Source of the DNA: an actinobacterium LLX17
Lineage (GTDB): Bacteria > Actinomycetota > Actinomycetes > Propionibacteriales > Nocardioidaceae
Direction: 5' to 3'
Length of the DNA: 64,000 nt
NCBI GenBank assembly: GCA_000471045.1
Contig: KI301992.1
Span: 231,287 to 295,286, forward strand
Under the pieces are notes generated by a model. The model had not been told where the DNA came from. It made no database searches and saw nothing but the letters and a program-made list of their open reading frames with translations. The translations under genes and the position numbers were made by a program. The number at the start of each line of letters is the position of its first letter. Within the stretch, counting starts at the first letter, position 1. Shown in pieces: positions 19,342 to 59,227 of the stretch.

Positions 19342-19402
19342 CTGCCGCCCATGGCCGGTGACCCCGCCGCAGGCGGGGGTGCCGGGCCGTGGGCGGCAAG
19401 AT
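19342..19402. repeat. Dispersed repeat, copy A, within a ~60-bp imperfect palindrome
   Basis: The right half (19371-19402) matches 38391-38422 in 31 of 32 positions. The left half, beginning TGCCGCCCATGGCC, is nearly the reverse complement of GGCCGTGGGCGGCA in the right half, so the whole element can fold into one long hairpin with a GCA tip near 19369. It lies directly after the FedB-like gene and may also act as its terminator. Confidence 0.75.
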
Positions 19403-48238: not shown

Positions 48239-49378
<1,140 letters not shown>

Positions 49379-49503: not shown

Positions 49504-51453
49504 ATGAGCGGCTGGCGGCTGGCGATCGACTTCGGCACGTCGAACTCGGCCGCCGCGATCCAGCTCGACGGGCGCGAGCCGCAGAGCGTGCGGCTCGGCG
49601 ACGGTGCCGACGTCATGCCGTCCGCCATCTTCGCCGACTCCGGTGGCATCGCGGTCGGCACCGAGGCCACGCGCCGGATGATGCTCGATCCCAGCGCCTT
49701 CGAGCGCAATCCCAAGCGCCTGATGGGCCAGCAGCTCGTGCAGCTGGGCGGCACCGACCTCGAGGTCGTCGACCTGGTCGCCGCCGTCCTGCGCACCATC
49801 GTGCAGCGCGCCGCCCGGGTGGCCGGTGGTGGTCGCCCCGACCTGCTGACGCTGACCTACCCGGCGGGCTACCAGCGGGCCCGGCGCGACCTGCTCGTCG
49901 AGGCCGCGGTGCGCGCCGGGTTCGATCGCGGCCTGGTGGGTCTGCTGCCCGAGCCCGTCGCCGCCGTCGCCCGGTACGCCCAGAATGCGCCCCTGCCGCC
50001 GGACGGCAGTCACCTCTGCGTCGTCGACGTCGGTGGTGGCACGTGCGACGTCGCCGTGCTGCGCGTCACGGGTGACTCGCTCCGCCCCTTCGAGGTGGTC
50101 TCGACGGCGGGACGCTCCGACCTCGGCGGTGGCCTCTTCGACCTGCGGCTCGAGGGACTCGTGCTCGAGTCCGTGCGGCAGGGCGACCATGCCGACGTCC
50201 TCGCGGCGCTCGAGAGCAGCGAAGGTCTGGGCGCGCGCCGGGCCCTGCGGGAGCAGGTCGCGCTGTCCAAGCACGCCCTGTCGGAGTCGGAGTCGACCAC
50301 GGTGCCGGTCGTCACGCGTGCTGGAACGGCCACGATCACCGTGACCGCCGACGAGTTCGCGGCCGCCATCGCCGACGACGTGCAGCAAATCGCCAACCTG
50401 GCGGCCGAGGCGTGCTCGCGCGCCCAGCTGGACCCCACCGAGCTCGACACGCTCTACCTCACCGGTGGGGCGTCGCTCGTGCGTCCGTTGCAGACGGCGC
50501 TCGCGCAGGTCGTCGGGCAACCGGCCGCCACGCTCGACGACCCGAAGCTGGTCACCTGCCTGGGGGCACTCTCGCCGCTCGGCCAGCGCCTGCGGGAGCC
50601 GGCCGTGCCGCCGATGCCGGCGCCCGCGCCACCGACCGAAGCCGCACCTGCGCCGGCGCCGCTGGTGGCGCCCGCGCCGAGCCCTGCGCCGAGCCCTGCC
50701 CCGGCACCGGCACCGGCTCCCGCGCCTGCGCCGATCCGTCGTGCCCCCACCGCCAGGTCCGCCCCGGCGCCGGCGGCTCGCAACACGGGAGGCTCCGGGG
50801 GCCCGGTGAAGGGCAAGCGCCGGTTGCCCCTGCTGATCGGTGCCGTCGTGCTGGGGCTCATCGTGGTGGGAGGCGGTGTAGCCGCCGCCATGACGGTCCT
50901 GCGTGGCGGGGACGATCCGGGCCCGACGGCCACGCCGGACCCCGATCGCACCACCGGCACCGTCTCGACCGACTTCGACCCCGCCTGCGGTGAGAGCCCC
51001 GACCTCACCGAGACCGAGTGCATCCTGCGGAACGACGTGCTCTCCGCCGGCTGGCCCGTCGACCCGGCGGACTGCGAGCCGATCGAGGCGGACGACGCAC
51101 AGCTCGCCATTGCCTGCCCGGCGCTCCCGGTCGAAGAGGGTGGTCTCGCTCCCGACGGGGGTGTGCGCATCTTCGGCTACGGCGACACGGCGACGATGGA
51201 TGACTCCTTCATGAGCGCCATCACGACGCTCGACCTCGACGGACCGATCAGCCTCAACGAAGGGGCAGAGGGCTGGGGGCGCTGGAACTACCAGGACGTG
51301 GAGGAGGACGCCGGCAAGGTGCTGCTGCACTACAACACCGAGCGGGCCCGGAGCTACGTGGCGTGGACCGACGAGTCGATCAACGTGGAGATGTGGGCCG
51401 GTCACGAGGGCGAGATCCTTTCCGACATGCACGACTGGTGGGCGAATGCCTGA
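49504..51453 (+). CDS. Hsp70-like ATPase with transmembrane segment and extracytoplasmic domain
   Basis: 649 aa. The first ~360 residues are an actin/Hsp70 ATPase: 'AIDFGTSNSAAAIQLDG' (phosphate 1), 'VVDVGGGTCDVAVLRV' (phosphate 2), 'LYLTGGASLVRPLQ' (adenosine). Instead of a peptide-binding domain there is a Pro/Ala-rich linker (about 364-425), a membrane helix (about 440-465) and a ~170-residue outer domain with several Cys. That layout suits a sensor linking an outside signal to a cytoplasmic ATPase. It is first in a run with two dynamin-like GTPases. I do not know its partner; DnaK-like folding activity is unlikely without the substrate domain. Confidence 0.87.
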   Translation: MSGWRLAIDFGTSNSAAAIQLDGREPQSVRLGDGADVMPSAIFADSGGIAVGTEATRRMMLDPSAFERNPKRLMGQQLVQLGGTDLEVVDLVAAVLRTIVQRAARVAGGGRPDLLTLTYPAGYQRARRDLLVEAAVRAGFDRGLVGLLPEPVAAVARYAQNAPLPPDGSHLCVVDVGGGTCDVAVLRVTGDSLRPFEVVSTAGRSDLGGGLFDLRLEGLVLESVRQGDHADVLAALESSEGLGARRALREQVALSKHALSESESTTVPVVTRAGTATITVTADEFAAAIADDVQQIANLAAEACSRAQLDPTELDTLYLTGGASLVRPLQTALAQVVGQPAATLDDPKLVTCLGALSPLGQRLREPAVPPMPAPAPPTEAAPAPAPLVAPAPSPAPSPAPAPAPAPAPAPIRRAPTARSAPAPAARNTGGSGGPVKGKRRLPLLIGAVVLGLIVVGGGVAAAMTVLRGGDDPGPTATPDPDRTTGTVSTDFDPACGESPDLTETECILRNDVLSAGWPVDPADCEPIEADDAQLAIACPALPVEEGGLAPDGGVRIFGYGDTATMDDSFMSAITTLDLDGPISLNEGAEGWGRWNYQDVEEDAGKVLLHYNTERARSYVAWTDESINVEMWAGHEGEILSDMHDWWANA

Positions 51454-51486
51454 CCGGCCGTGCGCCGGAGTCGTGGGACCCCCGCG

Positions 51487-53397
51487 ATGACGGGTCCCGG
51501 CATGACGGACGCGCCGTCTCCGCACCGGGTGCGGCTCACCGCGGCCCAGGGACGCCTCGTGCGCCGCACGGTGTCGGCGCTCAAGGGCACCGAGCTGACG
51601 CCCTTCGGCGACACGATGGTCGCGATGCTGGGTGAGCCGGTGCCGGCGGTGCCCAGCGCCGTGCTGGTCGGCGAGGTCAAGCGGGGCAAGAGCACGCTCG
51701 TTAACGCCTTGGCCGCGCGGCGCGACCTCGTGCCGGCGGGCCTCGGCGTCGTGACGTCGGGCTTCCTGCGCGTCGTGCCGACCGGGAACGACCTGGCCGA
51801 CGGGAGCGCTCGGCTGCAGCTGGCCGACGGCAGCGCCCGCGACGTCACCCCCGAGCAGGCGCGCGACGCGATCCTGACGGGCGAGACCGGTGATGAGGAC
51901 GAGTCGCCGCTGGTCGGCGTGGTGCTGGTCGCCGACTCGCCCTGGCTGCCCGGCGTGGCGCTCGTCGACACGCCCGGCATCGCCGGCATCGCCGCCGGCC
52001 ACGCCGACCTGGCGGCCGTGGCCGCTGCCTCCGGCAGCGTCCTGGTCCTGGTCACCGATGCCGGCCAGGTGCTGACGGCCTCCGAGCTGGAGTTTCTCGA
52101 GCGCATCGCGTCGCGCCTGGAGTCCGTCGTCTTCGCCGTCACGAAGATCGACCAGTACCCGGCCACGTGGCCCGAGATCGTCGCCGAGAATCGTGAGCTG
52201 CTGCGGCGTCACGCTCCCCGCTTCGCCGACGCTCCGATCTGCCCGGTGTCGGGCTCGGTCGCGCTGGAGCTGATCGGCCTGGAGGGCGACGACCACGCCG
52301 ACCTCGCTGAGTACGCGGGCCTGGGTGCCCTGGCCACGGCGGTGCAGGAGCGTGCCGTCTCGCCCGAAGGTGTCGCCCTGGCGAACGCGCTGCGGGCCGG
52401 ACTCACGGGCGTCGAACGACTCATCGAGCGGCGCGAACGCACCATCGCCACCCTGCAGTCAGGCCCCGAGCAGCTGCCGGAGCTGGACGCGCTGGTCGAG
52501 AGGTTGCGGGCGCTGCAGGAGCAGGGCGAGCGGTGGTCGCTCGACCTGCAGTCCGACTCCAGCGTGCTGCGCGCCGACGTGCTGCACCGGGCCACCCAGT
52601 CGCTGGCGATCGTCCGCCAGCAGTGGACCGAGGTGGCGCGGGAGCGTCGCCGCGAGGACCCCGACACGGTCACCGCCGAGGTCGCCGCCGCACTGTCGCT
52701 GCAGCTGCGCGCCGTCGTCACCGGCACGATCGAGGAGTTCCTCGCCGGCTTCACCCGGCAGGCCGAGGCGCTGTTCGCCTCTGTCGGACGCCGGCTCGAC
52801 GACTGCGTCCGGCTGGAGCCGGGAGTCGACGACCTGGCGCTGGCCGAGGTCGCCGAGACCGAGCTGACCGGCGGGCTCGACCCGGCGCTGGCCGGCACCG
52901 CCATGGTCGGGGCCAGCATGGGCGGGCTCCTGGCCGGCCTGATCGTGCCGGCCGTCGTCGCGCCCGTCTTCACGATCGCCGCCGGTGCGGCCTGGTACGT
53001 GGTCAACTACCGCAGCCGACGCGGGCAGAACCTGGAACGCCTCGTCACCTCGACGGTCGGCACCGGCATCACCCGGGCCGAGACCCACCTGCGCTTCGCC
53101 GTCGATCGCGCCCGCACGATCGTGCTGCGCGATGTGACGATCGCCTTCCGGCAGGAGCTCAAGGCGGCGCTGGAGGCGGCGCGCTCCGACCTCGAGGTGG
53201 CCCGTCGTGTGGCCACCGAGACCCCGGAACGGCGGCGGCAGGCGATCGCCAACGAGGAGCGCCATCTCGCGGCGCTCCGGTCGCACCGCGACGACCTGAT
53301 GGCAGCCATCACGGAGGCAGTCCGGCCTCGGCGCACGGACGCGGGAACAAAGCCCGTCCCGGCGGCCTCTGAACCGGTGACCGACACGGGCGACTGA
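51487..53397 (+). CDS. Dynamin-like GTPase A (IniA-like), membrane-associated
   Basis: 636 aa. G1 'GEVKRGKST' (residues 62-70), G3 'VDTPGIAG', G4 'TKIDQYP'. Long helical stalk with an internal hydrophobic hairpin 'MVGASMGGLLAGLIVPAVVAPVFTIAAGAAWYVVNY' near residues 475-510, then more helices. This is the plan of bacterial dynamin-like proteins such as mycobacterial IniA, which bind and reshape the inner membrane. ATG 51487 is chosen among close starts (51460, 51502); no clear RBS. It lies 33 nt after the Hsp70-like gene. Confidence 0.87.
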   Translation: MTGPGMTDAPSPHRVRLTAAQGRLVRRTVSALKGTELTPFGDTMVAMLGEPVPAVPSAVLVGEVKRGKSTLVNALAARRDLVPAGLGVVTSGFLRVVPTGNDLADGSARLQLADGSARDVTPEQARDAILTGETGDEDESPLVGVVLVADSPWLPGVALVDTPGIAGIAAGHADLAAVAAASGSVLVLVTDAGQVLTASELEFLERIASRLESVVFAVTKIDQYPATWPEIVAENRELLRRHAPRFADAPICPVSGSVALELIGLEGDDHADLAEYAGLGALATAVQERAVSPEGVALANALRAGLTGVERLIERRERTIATLQSGPEQLPELDALVERLRALQEQGERWSLDLQSDSSVLRADVLHRATQSLAIVRQQWTEVARERRREDPDTVTAEVAAALSLQLRAVVTGTIEEFLAGFTRQAEALFASVGRRLDDCVRLEPGVDDLALAEVAETELTGGLDPALAGTAMVGASMGGLLAGLIVPAVVAPVFTIAAGAAWYVVNYRSRRGQNLERLVTSTVGTGITRAETHLRFAVDRARTIVLRDVTIAFRQELKAALEAARSDLEVARRVATETPERRRQAIANEERHLAALRSHRDDLMAAITEAVRPRRTDAGTKPVPAASEPVTDTGD

Positions 53398-53411
53398 CCA
53401 GGAGCAGAACC

Positions 53412-54731
53412 ATGAGCGATCCGACCGACGACCTGCTGGGCGCGCAGGGCAAGGACGCCGATGGCGACGGCTACGAGGAGATCGTGGTCGAGTACTTCGA
53501 CGACGGGTCCTCCGTGGCGACCTACGACTTCAACGCCGACGGCGAGATCGACGGTGTCGACGTCGACACCGACGGTGACAACCAGATCGACCTGGCGGTC
53601 GTCGAGACGTCGGACGGCGAGGTGGCCGTGTTCACCGATCCGGAGTCGTCGGACGCGGAGCCCGAGATCATGTCGTTCGACGAGGCCGAGGAGCTGGCGC
53701 CGGGCCTCGTGGACCTGCTGGGCGAGGACCACGGCGAGGTCGACCTCGCCGACCTCGATCCCTCCGACCTGGAGGACAAGCCGGCGTCCAACCCGTTCGT
53801 CTTCGCTCCCGACAAGGACGAGGACGAGGACGAGGACGAGGATCGCGACCGCGACGAGGACAAGGACCGCGACGACGAGGACGACGAGGACCGCGACGAT
53901 GACGGGGACACCGAGGTCGTCGACCCCGGCAAGCACCCGCAGGGCGATCCGGACGGGACCTCCCTGGTCGGTGACCCGTTCGGTGAGGCCGACCTGTGGT
54001 TCGAGCAGGCGGTCAACGGCACCTGCGCCCCCGCCACGGTCGCGCAGATCGTCTCGGAGTACACCGGTCAGGAGTTCACCGACGAGCAGCAGTTCGTCGA
54101 CATGGCGATCGACTCCGGTGCGATGGAGGTCCTGCCGGACGGCACGACGTCGGGCATGTACGCCCACGACATCGTCACCCTGCTGAACGACTCCGGAGTC
54201 CCGGCCGACCTCGAGGACGGGCTGGGCGTCGATGACCTGAAGGGCTTCCTGGCCGACGACGTGGGTGTCGCGGTGATGGTCGACGCCGACGAGTACTGGA
54301 ACCCGATGTACGGGATGCCGGAAGAGGCCGAGGACGACATGCCCAACCACATCGTGCTGGTCACGGGTGTCGACGAGGAGGCCGGCGTGGTCTACATCAA
54401 CGACACCGGCACCCCCGACGGCGAGGCGCTGGCCGTGCCGATGGACTACTTCCTCGACGCGTGGGAGGACAGTGGTTCGCAGGCCGTCGTGTGCGACGAG
54501 CCGGCGCCGGACTCCCAGACCGTCGACATCGTCGACCCGGACGAGGACGAGTCCGACGACGATCGCGAGCGTGAGGACGACGAGCGCGACGACGAGCGCG
54601 ACCAGGGCTCGAGCGGCATGGCGGAGTCCGGTCTGGCGAAGTCCGCCACCGTCTCGCACCTGGTCGACGGCCGATGGGCGCTCCTGCCCGTGGTCCTCTC
54701 CGGTGATGCCGCTGCTGCGGCGTCGAAGTGA
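53412..54731 (+). CDS. Acidic protein with calcium-type loops and a C39/papain-like domain
   Basis: 439 aa, extremely acidic. The N-terminal ~65 residues contain EF-hand/dockerin-like loops ('DADGDGYEE', 'DFNADGEIDGVDVDTDGD'). After an Asp/Glu/Arg-rich linker (about 135-170) comes a papain-like fold with Cys205 in 'NGTCAPATVAQIVSEYTG' and His313 in 'PNHIVLVTGVD', followed by 'VYINDTGTPDG' (Asn/Asp). These match C39-like peptidases. A second acidic stretch lies near the C terminus. No signal peptide is visible, so it is probably cytoplasmic or exported without one. RBS CAGGAGCAG. It lies between the two dynamin-like genes. Confidence 0.82.
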   Translation: MSDPTDDLLGAQGKDADGDGYEEIVVEYFDDGSSVATYDFNADGEIDGVDVDTDGDNQIDLAVVETSDGEVAVFTDPESSDAEPEIMSFDEAEELAPGLVDLLGEDHGEVDLADLDPSDLEDKPASNPFVFAPDKDEDEDEDEDRDRDEDKDRDDEDDEDRDDDGDTEVVDPGKHPQGDPDGTSLVGDPFGEADLWFEQAVNGTCAPATVAQIVSEYTGQEFTDEQQFVDMAIDSGAMEVLPDGTTSGMYAHDIVTLLNDSGVPADLEDGLGVDDLKGFLADDVGVAVMVDADEYWNPMYGMPEEAEDDMPNHIVLVTGVDEEAGVVYINDTGTPDGEALAVPMDYFLDAWEDSGSQAVVCDEPAPDSQTVDIVDPDEDESDDDREREDDERDDERDQGSSGMAESGLAKSATVSHLVDGRWALLPVVLSGDAAAAASK

Positions 54732-54754
54732 CCCAGAACCTAGAGTGAGCACTG

Positions 54755-55138
54755 ATGTCTGACGAGCTGCCGATCGCCCAGGTGCCGGAGTCCACGTGGC
54801 TCCGGGTCCTGGCCCACGCCCTGGATCCCGACACCGAGGCGGGTGACGAGTCGCTCGTGCCCTCGGACGACGGGGACCCACTGGCCGATGCGTCCGGGCC
54901 ACTCGCCGACGACGTCGACCCGTGGGACGAGGACGCGGACGCGGCCGACGGGTCCGGCACGGAGACGGCCGTCGGCGACGAGTCTCACGCTGTGGGGGAC
55001 GATCTCGGCGGGTGGGGCGAGACCGTCGACGTCGATGACATCGCGATCGCCGACGGTGAGGCGGCGGTCGACAACTACACCGCCGCGCTGCCGGAGGAGC
55101 ACGACGATCGCGATGCGCCTGACGACGCCGGCTGGTGA
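54755..55138 (+). CDS. Small acidic protein, unknown function
   Basis: 127 aa. An ordered-looking N terminus ('LPIAQVPESTWLRVLAHALDPDTEAG') is followed by a mostly Asp/Glu/Gly/Ala tail with no predicted structure. It may be an adaptor or charge-rich partner of the neighbouring GTPases. The start is 23 nt after the C39-like gene and the stop 3 nt before dynamin B, so it belongs to the same operon. In position it recalls IniB of mycobacteria but does not share its Gly-rich sequence. Confidence 0.75.
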   Translation: MSDELPIAQVPESTWLRVLAHALDPDTEAGDESLVPSDDGDPLADASGPLADDVDPWDEDADAADGSGTETAVGDESHAVGDDLGGWGETVDVDDIAIADGEAAVDNYTAALPEEHDDRDAPDDAGW

Positions 55139-55141
55139 TCG

Positions 55142-56656
55142 GTGAGCAACGACGTCGTGGTGCGCCGCGTCGACCTCTTGCTGGAGGAGGCGATCCGGGT
55201 CGGGGGTCCCGAGGTGCGGGCCGTGGCTGCGGAGCGACGGGCTGCGCTGGCAGAACCGCTGCGACTGGCCGTGGTGGGACGCGTCAAGGCCGGCAAGTCG
55301 ACGTTGGTCAACGCGTTGATCGGCCGGCGCATCGCCCCGACCCGCGCAGGTGAGTGCACCCGCGTCGTCACGTGGTTCCAGTACGGGTCGCCGGACGGCT
55401 CGGCGGTCGTGCACTGCCACGACGGTCGGGAGATCCCGATCGCTCTGGTCGACGGCCGGTTGCCCGAGGAGCTGCCGGTGCGGGCCCACGAGGTGCGCCG
55501 ACTCGTGGTGCGGCTGCAGTCCGCGCAGCTGCGCGACCTGACCCTGATCGACACTCCCGGGTTGTCGTCGCTCACGGCGGAGAACGAGCAGACCACCCGC
55601 GATGCGCTGCTGGGCACCGGCGGGGGTGCGGGGCCACGGGCCGCAGACGACACCGGCGGGGGTGCGGGGCCACGGGCCGCAGACGAGACCGTCACCTTGG
55701 CGTCGCGGCACGCGAGCGGTGACGCCGATGCGGTGGTGTTCCTGTTCCGGCACGAGCAGCGGCAGGACGAGTCGGACTTCCTGCGGCAGTTCACGGCCGC
55801 GTCGGGCGAGATGAACGGTTCGGCGGTCAACGCGATCGGCGTCCTGTCGCAGGCCGATCTGCTGGCCGACGACGCCGACGGGGTGACTGACCCGATGGCG
55901 CCGGCGCGGGAGCATGCCGCGCGACTGGCGGAGTCCCGCATCGCGGAGGTCGCGGACGTCGTGGCGGTCTCGGGCCTGATGGCCGAGAGCGCGCGCACGG
56001 GTCGCATCAGGGAGCGTGACGTGGTCGATCTCGCGGCCCTGCGGGAGGTCGCTCCGGTGCGTCTGCGCACCGGCGTGGGCCTGGGCGGCGCGGTCGATCC
56101 GGAGCGCTTCCGTGCGCTCCAGGCGAGACTGGGTCCGCTGGGCGTGCTGGCGGGCCGGCATGCGGCGGCCGACGGGTCGGAGGGTTTTCTCGACTGGCTG
56201 GCGGGCACGTCGGGGGTCGACGAGCTGGAACGGGTGCTGGACGAGCACGTCCGTGCACGGGCGGCGGGACTGAAGGCCATCCGCGCGCTCGATGCGATCG
56301 AGCGGGCGGCGCGGTACACGGGACGCGACGAGGCGGTGCTCGACCTCGTCGAGCAGGCCCTGATGTCGGCCGAGCTGCAGCAGGTGCGCGAGATCCGGGC
56401 CATCGGCATGCTCCGGTCGACGCGGGTCGCGCCGGAGCTGCTGCCGGAGCTGGAGCGCCTGAGCTCCAGTGACGACCCCGCGGTGCGTCTGGGGCTGCCG
56501 CCGGACAGCGACTCGGTGACCATCGCGGCCGAGGCGCGCCGTCGCTCGGGGGAGAACCAGGCACGGGCCACGATGGCCTTCGCGCCGGGTGAGGCCGAGG
56601 CCGCCCGAGTCTTGGCACAGTCGTACCAGTACATCGCCCGCGCCGCCGAGGGGTGA
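55142..56656 (+). CDS. Dynamin-like GTPase B (IniC-like)
   Basis: 504 aa. G1 'GRVKAGKSTLVNAL' (residues 46-59), G2-like Thr in 'GECTRVVT', G3 'LIDTPGLSS'; the G4 motif is weak ('LSQADLL' in place of N/TKxD), as in many bacterial dynamin partners. The C-terminal half is helical with no hydrophobic hairpin, so it may act with dynamin A as a heteromer. Between G3 and G4 there is an in-frame double copy of GGGAGPRAADDT-like residues (55616-55687). GTG 55142 is 3 nt after the previous stop. Confidence 0.86.
   Translation: MSNDVVVRRVDLLLEEAIRVGGPEVRAVAAERRAALAEPLRLAVVGRVKAGKSTLVNALIGRRIAPTRAGECTRVVTWFQYGSPDGSAVVHCHDGREIPIALVDGRLPEELPVRAHEVRRLVVRLQSAQLRDLTLIDTPGLSSLTAENEQTTRDALLGTGGGAGPRAADDTGGGAGPRAADETVTLASRHASGDADAVVFLFRHEQRQDESDFLRQFTAASGEMNGSAVNAIGVLSQADLLADDADGVTDPMAPAREHAARLAESRIAEVADVVAVSGLMAESARTGRIRERDVVDLAALREVAPVRLRTGVGLGGAVDPERFRALQARLGPLGVLAGRHAAADGSEGFLDWLAGTSGVDELERVLDEHVRARAAGLKAIRALDAIERAARYTGRDEAVLDLVEQALMSAELQQVREIRAIGMLRSTRVAPELLPELERLSSSDDPAVRLGLPPDSDSVTIAAEARRRSGENQARATMAFAPGEAEAARVLAQSYQYIARAAEG
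55616..55687. repeat. In-frame tandem 36-bp duplication in dynamin B
   Basis: Two units, 55616-55651 and 55652-55687, differ only at the last base. Each encodes 12 residues starting TGGGAGPRAAD. The unit resembles the dispersed intergenic repeat (shared GGCGGGGGTGC, then GGGCC and GGGC at the same spacing), which in the same frame would read GGGAGPWAA. Confidence 0.85.
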
Positions 56657-56689
56657 GGTTGCCGCAGGACGCCCCTGGCAGTCCATACT

Positions 56690-56706
56690 GGTTCCCGACG
56701 GGAACC
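56690..56706. promoter_or_regulatory. Perfect 17-bp inverted repeat and candidate ECF promoter upstream of the sigma factor
   Basis: GGTTCCC (56690-56696), GAC, GGGAACC (56700-56706). A CATACT box lies immediately before it. The right arm GGGAACC resembles an ECF-type -35 (GGAAC); a possible -10 CTCGG sits 16 nt on at 56723. This would fit an operator, an autoregulated promoter, or a short terminator hairpin after dynamin B. Confidence 0.5.
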
Positions 56707-56752
56707 ATCGGCGGGTCACAGGCTCGGCAGATGAATCTGAGACGGGGGTGTC

Positions 56753-57304
56753 ATGGCGGCAGCAGGCGGTGCGGACCGAGCCCGTCACGACGAGCTCGTC
56801 GAACGTGCCCGTGCCGGTGACGCCGATGCTTTCGGGGTCCTGGTCACCGAGAGCCGCGACGTGCTGTGGTCGGTGTGCCTGCGCATCACGGGGGATCACG
56901 GTGACGCCGAGGACGCGCTGCAGGACGCACTGATCTCCGCCTGGCAGAACATCGGCTCGTTCCGGGGCGGGGCGAAGTTCAGCACGTGGTGCTACCGCAT
57001 CGCCGCCAACGCCTCGATTGCCGTGTGTCGCAAGCGTCGCACGATCTCGGTGGACGTCGCCGACATGGTCGACCTGTTCACGACGCCGGACGTGACCGGC
57101 CAGATCGACGATCGCGACGTGGTGACCGCGGCGCTGGCCGAGGTGTCGCCGGACTTCCGGGAGGCGCTGGTGCTGCGTGAGTACGGCGATCTGACCTACG
57201 AGCAGATCGCCGGCCACCAGGGCGTGCCCGTGCAGACCGTGAAGAGTCGCATCAACCGGGCCCGCCATCAGCTGGCCGACGCGGTCCGCGCGTCCACCGG
57301 CTGA
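56753..57304 (+). CDS. ECF-type RNA polymerase sigma factor
   Basis: 183 aa. Region 2 'HDELVERARAGDADAFGVLV ... GDAEDALQDALISAWQNIGSFRGGAKFSTWCYRIAAN' (about residues 12-87) and region 4 'VSPDFREALVLREYGDLTYEQIAGHQGVPVQTVKSRINRARHQL' (about residues 130-175) are both complete. No anti-sigma gene follows; the next gene is mutA. Its place after the Hsp70-dynamin cluster suggests that it controls or is controlled with it. Confidence 0.93.
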   Translation: MAAAGGADRARHDELVERARAGDADAFGVLVTESRDVLWSVCLRITGDHGDAEDALQDALISAWQNIGSFRGGAKFSTWCYRIAANASIAVCRKRRTISVDVADMVDLFTTPDVTGQIDDRDVVTAALAEVSPDFREALVLREYGDLTYEQIAGHQGVPVQTVKSRINRARHQLADAVRASTG

Positions 57305-57373: not shown

Positions 57374-59227
57374 ATGTCAGCCGATTCGCCGACGTCGCCC
57401 GTGCAGACCGAGGAGCCACCTCCGGAGGAGCCGCCCGCCGTGGCCGTGCCTCTCGCCGAGGGACTCTCCTCGACGCGTGAGGCCTGGGAGAAGGCCACCG
57501 CAGCCGTGCTCCGCAAGACGCGTCGCCTCGCCGAGGACACCTCCGACACCGACGTGTGGGACGTGCTCACGACCCGCACGCTCGACGGCATCGCGGTCAC
57601 GCCGCTCGGCACCCCGGAGCTGACCGCCGACCTGCCCTCCGCGGGTCTGCCGGGGCAGTCGCCGTTCACCCGCGGCGCCACGGCTGCCCGCGAGAACCGT
57701 GCCTGGGACGTCCGGGGCTGGTTCACCGATCCCGACGCCGAGCGCACCGCCGCCGACGTCGTCACCGACCTCGAGAACGGCGTCAACTCGCTGTGGCTCA
57801 CGGTCGGTGACGACGGCGTCCCCACCGCCTCGCTCGCGACGGTGCTGGAGCCGGTCTTCGTCGACCTGGCGCCGGTCGTCGTGCAGGACCCGCACGATCC
57901 GCTCGCTGCGGCGCAGGCTCTGGCGGCGGTGCTGGACGACAAGGCCGTGCAGGCCCACGGCGGCACCAACCTGGGCGCCGACCCGATCGGCAACGCCCTG
58001 CGTGGCCGGGGGCAGACCGACCCGGCGGTCGCCGTCGAGGTGGCTCGTCTGGCCGCGCCCCTGGGCGTGCGCGCGATCGTCGTCGACGGCACGGCCGTGC
58101 ACGACGCCGGCGCCTCCGACGTGCAGGAGCTGGCCTACCTCCTGGCGGCGGGCGCCGCGTACCTGCGGCTGCTGGTCGACGCCGGGTTCTCGGTCGACGA
58201 GGCCGCCGGGCTGCTCGAGTTCCGCATCGCCGCCACCGACGAGCAGCTGCCGACCATCGCCAAGCTGCGGGCCGCTCGCCGCACGTGGGCCCGGGTGGCC
58301 GAGCTGAGCGGCGTCGCCGAGGAGGCGCGTGGCCAGCTGCAGCACGCCGTGACGTCGCGGCCGATGATGACGACGTTCGACCCCTACGTGAACATGCTGC
58401 GCACGACCGTCGCGGCGTTCGCGGCCGGCGTCGGCGGGGCCGCGTCGGTCACGGTGCTGCCCTTTGACGAGCCGCTGGGACTGCCGGAGGCGTTCAGCCG
58501 TCGCATCGCCCGCAACACGTCGAGCCTGCTGATCAGCGAGTCGCACGTCGCCACGGTGACCGACCCTGCCGGTGGGTCGCACGTCGTGGAGCAGCTGACC
58601 GACGACCTCGCGCGTGCCGCCTGGGCCGCCTTCGGCGCTCTCGAGGAGGCCGGCGGAGTGCTCGACGCGCTGGACGACATCCGGGCCGGCATCGAGCGCA
58701 CGGTCTCCGAGCGCTCGCTCGAGATCGCGACCCGTCAGCGTCCCCTCACCGGTGTCAGCGAGTTCCCGAACCTCGAGGAGGAGCTGCCCGAGCGCCGCCC
58801 CTACGCGAGTGCCCCGGTCGTGCACCGGTACGCCCACGAGTACGAGCAGATGCGCCACGATCGTGCCGAGACGCCGGTCTTCCTCGCCACGATGGGCCCG
58901 ATCGCGGCCCACACCGCACGGGCCACGTTCGCCGCCAACCTGTTCGCCGCCGGTGGTGTCGACACCGTGGTGGCGGGCGCGACGGCGGGGGTCGACGAGG
59001 TCCTCGCGGCCTACGACGGCTCCCCGGTGGTCTGCCTGGCCGGACCCGACACCGCGTACGCCGAGTGGGGAGCTGACCTGGTGCCCGCGCTGCGCGAGGC
59101 GGGAGCACGCCACGTCATCGTGGCCGGCAAGGAGAAGGTCGCCACCGAGATCGGTGCCGACGACTCCGCCGCGATGGGCCTCGATGCCTTGGCCTTCCTG
59201 CGCCGTACCCGAGAGGAGCTGGTCTGA
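57374..59227 (+). CDS. mutA: Methylmalonyl-CoA mutase small (beta) subunit
   Basis: 617 aa. The structural partner of MutB, lacking a working B12 site. '[24 protein letters not shown]' at residues ~95-120 matches the family's TIM-barrel entry, '[35 protein letters not shown]' follows near residues 335-370, and the C-terminal flavodoxin-like domain is present but without the DxHxxG cobalamin motif. ATG 57374 follows TACGAT (57361-57366) by 7 nt, leaderless. MutB starts 1 nt after its stop. Confidence 0.95.

Follow-up and report, generated by a model that had tools for sequence, protein, structure and literature searches.

Which cellular process is served by a gene cluster that combines an Hsp70-type ATPase with two dynamin-like GTPases, a peptidase, a small acidic protein and a sigma factor, and how is it related to the iniBAC system of mycobacteria, the operon with which tuberculosis bacteria respond to drugs? 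The cluster lies at 49504..57304 of the window, i.e., of the whole stretch of 64,000 nucleotides that was analyzed, in an Aeromicrobium genome consisting of a single contig of 3.0 Mb. An ORF check of the window confirmed six ORFs at these positions, termed A to F and all on the plus strand, and with them the originally stated gaps of 33 (A-B), 14 (B-C), 23 (C-D) and 3 nt (D-E), the first of which assumes a start of B at 51487, with 51460 and 51529 as alternative starts; E and F are separated by 96 nt. The block is flanked by housekeeping genes, on one side by serC on the minus strand (48239..49345; TIGR01366 3.5e-172) and on the other side by methylmalonyl-CoA mutase genes, with mutA encoding the small subunit (57440..59227, plus strand; PF01642 4e-106). 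Among the titles and abstract starts listed from one open-access library, no description of this gene set was found.

The kinship to iniBAC that had been proposed is borne out by the two GTPases. Gene B (51487..53397, plus strand, 636 aa) encodes an IniA-type dynamin-like GTPase with a Dynamin_N domain (4e-15) and intact G1, G3 and G4 motifs. Its best solved relative is IniA (6j72, 5e-17), matched over profile positions 34-597 and nearly full length. The membrane hairpin expected in B corresponds to a hydrophobic hairpin near 52927-53005, with a hydrophobic segment at residue 481. Gene E (55142..56656, plus strand, 504 aa) encodes an IniC-type dynamin-like GTPase as judged by its Dynamin_N match (5e-17), its tree position and its motifs. 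In E, G1-G3 are kept and G4 is degenerate (LSQAD), as the original prediction had it; this is, however, not peculiar to E of this block but common to the entire E/IniC family, because R, H or Q occupies the position of the G4 lysine in 76 of the 78 E proteins (of 80) for which the motif was printed. In two publications, IniA is described as performing membrane fission and vesicle release as needing both IniA and IniC (PMC11077946; PMC11832169).

The alignment of E was scanned against named genomes, which yielded 336 relatives, and the best 80 of these 336 were kept. A tree of these best 80, calculated with a quick method without bootstrap, split the E proteins into groups of 22 and 58 with SH-aLRT values of 100 on both branches. 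E has relatives in the partner GTPases of loci encoding IniR and IniB, yet it belongs to a separate side of the tree. The loci of the best 80 of 336 together with the window, L033 and L035 were sorted by six-frame profile searches, with profiles seeded from some of the same loci that they sorted, into 24 loci on the ECF-sigma side and 59 loci on the iniBAC side. On the ECF-sigma side F was found in 21 of these 24 loci, A in 19, B in 21 and C in 16, with an IniR-type regulator and IniB in none. The loci without F are L058, L061 and L082, the latter at a contig end; those without A (L048, L053, L082, L115, L121) all lie at contig ends. In a thinned E tree of 52 rows, L061 was placed on the ECF-sigma side, on a long branch. 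On the iniBAC side, the same set of 59 loci contains an IniR-type gene in 49, IniB in 50, A in 49 and an ECF gene in a single case (L074), which is a weak match (7e-8). In evolutionary terms, the regulator split counts as a single deep event or a few events and does not represent many independent changes.

The IniR-type proteins shown comprise 829-876 aa and carry a LuxR-type domain at the end, and Pfam searches on two of them returned LuxR and weak STAND/AAA matches. They were assigned by architecture and not by comparison with mycobacterial IniR itself; the published description of IniR agrees with these matches and also places a dnaK-like gene next to iniR in M. smegmatis (PMC5760070). The block and iniBAC, the latter represented among the loci analyzed by Microbacterium, Rhodococcus, Pseudonocardia and others and in print by Mycobacterium, have in common the pair of an IniA-type and an IniC-type GTPase and the Hsp70-like gene nearby. 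iniBAC possesses IniB and a STAND-LuxR regulator, whereas the block has an ECF sigma factor, the C39 peptidase and D instead. The claim that the cluster goes beyond iniBAC holds for the C39-like protein and the sigma factor but not for the Hsp70-like gene, the common presence of which beside iniBAC had been missed. By its gene content, the block is a sister system of iniBAC that has an adjoining ECF sigma gene where iniBAC has IniR. The exchange of a sigma factor for IniR and of a C39 protein for IniB would allow predictions on IniB and on the iniBAC-linked DnaK-like proteins.

Gene A (49504..51453, plus strand, 649 aa) encodes an Hsp70-like protein (PF00012 5e-23), for which DnaK (1dkg) was the best match among solved sequences (6e-20). 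A shares the ATPase domain (49504-50568) and the aligned nucleotide-binding motifs with DnaK/Hsp70, but the best stretch of the Pfam match spans residues 83-351 and ends at profile position 364 of 599, and no match to the substrate-binding domain of Hsp70 was found with Pfam. Beyond residue 351 A differs from DnaK by a Pro/Ala-rich linker, a predicted membrane helix (50830-50886; hydrophobic segment at residue 443) and an outer domain (50935-51450), in line with the proposed replacement of the substrate domain. The outer domain contains four cysteines that are invariant with A of two Micromonosporaceae; among solved sequences it gave a single match, which is not meaningful (E 1.2), and a DcrB/Mog1/PsbP-like fold is at best a tentative candidate for it. 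The domain also occurs in a mycobacteria-like genome, on a receptor Ser/Thr kinase (locus L207) that was identified when the surroundings of a profile match were read; a protein search with the outer domain returned three Hsp70-type relatives only and no kinases. The L207 receptor kinase has the helix and the outer domain in common with A and also has a C39 gene nearby, but its cytosolic part is a kinase, which is not present in A, where the Hsp70 ATPase domain stands instead. In this locus (L207:6574-10369) and in a second mycobacteria-like locus (L124:5232-9436), one gene lies between the receptor Ser/Thr kinase and the C39 gene, and these C39 genes have a signal-peptide-like start; the end of the L124 kinase looks alike but failed the profile.

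The outer domain of A is not universal on the ECF-sigma side: among 15 A proteins from this side, the helix after the ATPase domain is absent in those of L047, L052, L058, L059 and L078 and marginal in those of L035 and L049. Of the iniBAC-side A proteins printed, 29 of 30 contain the hydrophobic helix. A protein resembling the GrpE head and carrying a hydrophobic helix is encoded in 11 of the 24 ECF-side loci, as detected with a profile built from five of the 11. Pfam GrpE was found in all seven of these anchored proteins that were scanned, with L054, L056 and L078 below the Pfam cut-off. No GrpE-like gene was found in the Aeromicrobium block, and four Rhodococcus/Williamsia loci of the iniBAC kind encode a GrpE-like protein without helix (Pfam on two). 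A small leaderless protein is encoded between A and B in Isoptericola (L047:5722-6141) and in genome G049 (L035:12388-12804); that of L047, whose A is without a clear helix, is weakly DcrB-like (PF08786 0.0023, below cut-off). Judged by its domains, A of the block is predicted to be a membrane-spanning Hsp70-like protein and is a plausible sensor.

Gene C (53412..54731, plus strand, 439 aa) encodes an acidic protein predicted to be a C39-like cysteine peptidase (Peptidase_C39_2, PF13529 3e-7). It had been described as calcium-loop/papain-like, and both parts were recovered: DxDxDG loops were read in the sequence at 53454-53591, and the four catalytic residues Gln, Cys, His and Asp of the C39/papain-like domain (53964..54503, plus strand) do not vary among the 23 relatives that were aligned. 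Separate Ca-loop proteins of 157-269 aa are encoded in eight sister loci (L035, L047, L049-L052, L056, L059). Signal peptides were assessed by the maximum of hydrophobicity over 12 residues within the 35 residues after every upstream start, which is a crude measure and not a trained predictor. By this measure C is without a signal-peptide-like segment (maximum 0.88 across all possible starts). The same holds for 17 of 17 C39 proteins encoded near dynamin genes, with N-terminal maxima of 0.33-1.79, the upper value, reached by two Pseudonocardia C proteins, being equal to the lowest of the stand-alone C39 proteins (L128). Of the C39 proteins without a dynamin gene nearby, 13 of 14 have a signal-peptide-like segment (1.99-2.89), with L128 (1.79) as exception; two of these 14 loci (L130, L133) are cut by contig ends, beyond which a dynamin gene is possible. 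In mycobacterial relatives of C, 14 of 15 matches, the entry of the query itself included, also contain an Rpf-type transglycosylase and LysM, and 0 of 15 have a hydrophobic N terminus within the first 45 residues. This LysM/Rpf fusion is known from mycobacterial relatives alone, the gene neighbors having been read in one locus, L061 (9854-20901; Mycolicibacterium), which encodes E, B, a leaderless C39-LysM-Rpf fusion with a weak NlpC/P60 match and an Hsp70-like protein, with neither a sigma nor an IniR-type match. None of 148 genomes from one mycobacteria-like genus contained the mycobacterial type of C, a count that is uninformative without a positive.

The block may well be an envelope-stress membrane-fission (vesicle-shedding) machine, sister to iniBAC and predicted to carry a leaderless wall-acting peptidase outside, a reading to which we assign an even chance. 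The outer domain of A would sense damage of the envelope, and the Hsp70 ATPase cycle of A, for which sister loci provide the anchored GrpE as a helper, would control when the two GTPases assemble at the membrane. The pair of B and E would then pinch off membrane, by which the acidic Ca-loop peptidase C might pass to the wall, fold and act once outside, and loosen the wall so that vesicles can escape or damage be repaired. Expression of the block would be raised by the sigma factor F. The missing leader of C could also mean that the protein is cytosolic. The main rival explanation, which we regard as unlikely, builds on such a location: a breach of the membrane would admit calcium, the presumably low-affinity DxDxDG loops of C would bind it, the C39 domain would be switched on in a calpain-like manner and the GTPases would reseal the membrane. 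The IniA/IniC type of the GTPase pair, the lack of a signal-peptide-like segment and the DxDxDG loops, in C as well as in the separate Ca-loop proteins of the eight sister loci, are all consistent with this intracellular repair; the LysM and Rpf-type transglycosylase domains of the mycobacterial C relatives, which act on peptidoglycan outside, argue against it.

A far-reaching version of the membrane-fission reading, which is tentative and which we consider unlikely, would be a new export route. Here the receptor, having an Hsp70 ATPase where the kinase was and the anchored GrpE as exchange factor, would sense the envelope and energize the two dynamins, which would release, in buds of membrane, leaderless cell-wall hydrolases that fold with calcium; a dedicated sigma factor would control the route.

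The new features of the system are the Hsp70 ATPase with a receptor-kinase outer domain, the anchored GrpE and the leaderless partner related to wall enzymes. One conserved locus of a non-pathogen brings together two dynamins, a leaderless peptidase with wall hydrolases among its relatives and an Hsp70 ATPase that is predicted to span the membrane, and sister loci add an anchored GrpE. The system would bear on the role of Hsp70-like partners and regulators for bacterial dynamins and on the exit of leaderless proteins from Gram-positive cells.

Gene F (56753..57304, plus strand, 183 aa), 3' of E, encodes the expected sigma factor and comprises regions 2 and 4 only (Sigma70_r2 2.5e-16, r4_2 4e-13), i.e., it is an ECF sigma factor. 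An anti-sigma gene adjoining an ECF sigma gene is common, though not universal; no anti-sigma match was found among ten genes scanned. Judged by eye, no ECF-type motif is common to the aligned upstream regions of A (four Aeromicrobium loci), F (five) and mutA, which gives no support to the originally proposed switching-on of the operon by F. By eye, too, these alignments show conserved elements, TAGGGT 5' of A and CATACT 5' of F; a palindrome that precedes F in the window is not conserved in relatives. Depending on the family, F follows the module on the same strand, is convergent to it or lies upstream in divergent orientation, so its linkage to the module has outlived rearrangement. Gene D (54755..55138, plus strand) encodes a small acidic protein of 127 aa with an N-terminal W..AL..ALD motif and without a Pfam match; it is kept in four other Aeromicrobium loci and in L035, and matches elsewhere are weaker.

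Co-occurrence across genomes supports the original view of the cluster as one conserved unit. Three further genomes of the genus have the complete order A-B-C-D-E-F between serC and mutA; a fourth has it as well, except that its contig starts inside A. The nearest named loci with the block, L044 and L046, come from Aeromicrobium, and the genome of the window is assigned to this genus (Nocardioidaceae) on that basis. Within Aeromicrobium, the block constitutes an insertion between serC and mutA. By gaps taken by hand from coordinates, the two genes are less than 600 bp from each other and on the same contig in 31 of 41 genus genomes, and lie 1.5-3.7 kb apart in three (G011, G019, G022), and the block separates them in four; the remaining three could not be judged (G003 without a match, G016 and G030 with the genes on different contigs, G030 holding the block). 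An E of the block kind is present in 5 of 37 genus genomes, its own included, and four other congeners (G009, G014, G027, G031) have iniBAC-like sets elsewhere. Outside the genus, other families have the gene set in rearranged order: the ECF-side kind was found in Nocardioidaceae, Promicromonosporaceae, Micromonosporaceae, Pseudonocardiaceae, Nakamurellaceae and Microbacteriaceae, and also in Acidimicrobiales, Solirubrobacterales and one Mycolicibacterium. As judged from gene content, A to F form a conserved actinobacterial module whose members are kept across families while gene order changes, and the module is rare in genus and class. The C39 domain was rejected as a marker of the system: it was matched in 10 of 246 class genomes, nine times partially, with a full-length match of C in its own genome alone, and 14 of 15 C39 places examined (15 of 26 outside its own genome) were without a GTPase match. 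At L135:7741-14909, a divergent set combines an ECF-like sigma gene and a leaderless C39 protein with a further pair of dynamin-like GTPases and two unknown genes.

In Streptomyces, the paired bacterial dynamins DynA and DynB are linked to division and septum stabilization. By analogy, the GTPase pair of the block could act in division or septum stabilization with stress control being secondary; this is improbable, as no cell-division gene was called beside the block, the nearest solved relative of B is IniA, and E is present in so few of the 37 genus genomes and therefore dispensable. LeoABC is matched distantly by both GTPases, the E match being short (28-77 in LeoA), but its gene partners differ from those of the block and the weak matches come from the GTPases only. 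An anti-phage system, in which membrane sensing would trigger a dynamin-driven membrane change, is rejected as very improbable, the phage resistance suggested originally having found no support: the patchy occurrence as an insert, the weak LeoA/LeoBC matches in PADLOC-DB (B 3e-12, E 4e-7) and the match of A to a candidate family there (0.0047) would fit it, but C, D and F gave no PADLOC-DB match at E 0.01, the flanks are housekeeping genes and the 36 plasmid records matching E, mostly from Rhodococcus (16) and Prescottella (12), are all below 60% identity, for which reason plasmid carriage was rejected as well.

A feature of E that had been overlooked is an in-frame insert of 25 residues (55619..55693, plus strand), which is absent from five aligned relatives and contains a dispersed GC-rich repeat of ~36 nt in two copies. 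This repeat is often in tandem, and a further copy lies at 19372 of the window. Its core occurs at 37 places in the genome; of 35 copies whose placement was determined, 23 lie outside called genes, nine are in sense phase 0, one in sense phase 2 and two are antisense. The nine phase-0 copies lie, as assigned by eye, in six genes, i.e., E, an aminotransferase, the end of RimM, an ACT-domain protein, a helicase and one other. The repeat core was found in 12 of 41 genus genomes, and the reversed control gave one match across all 41.
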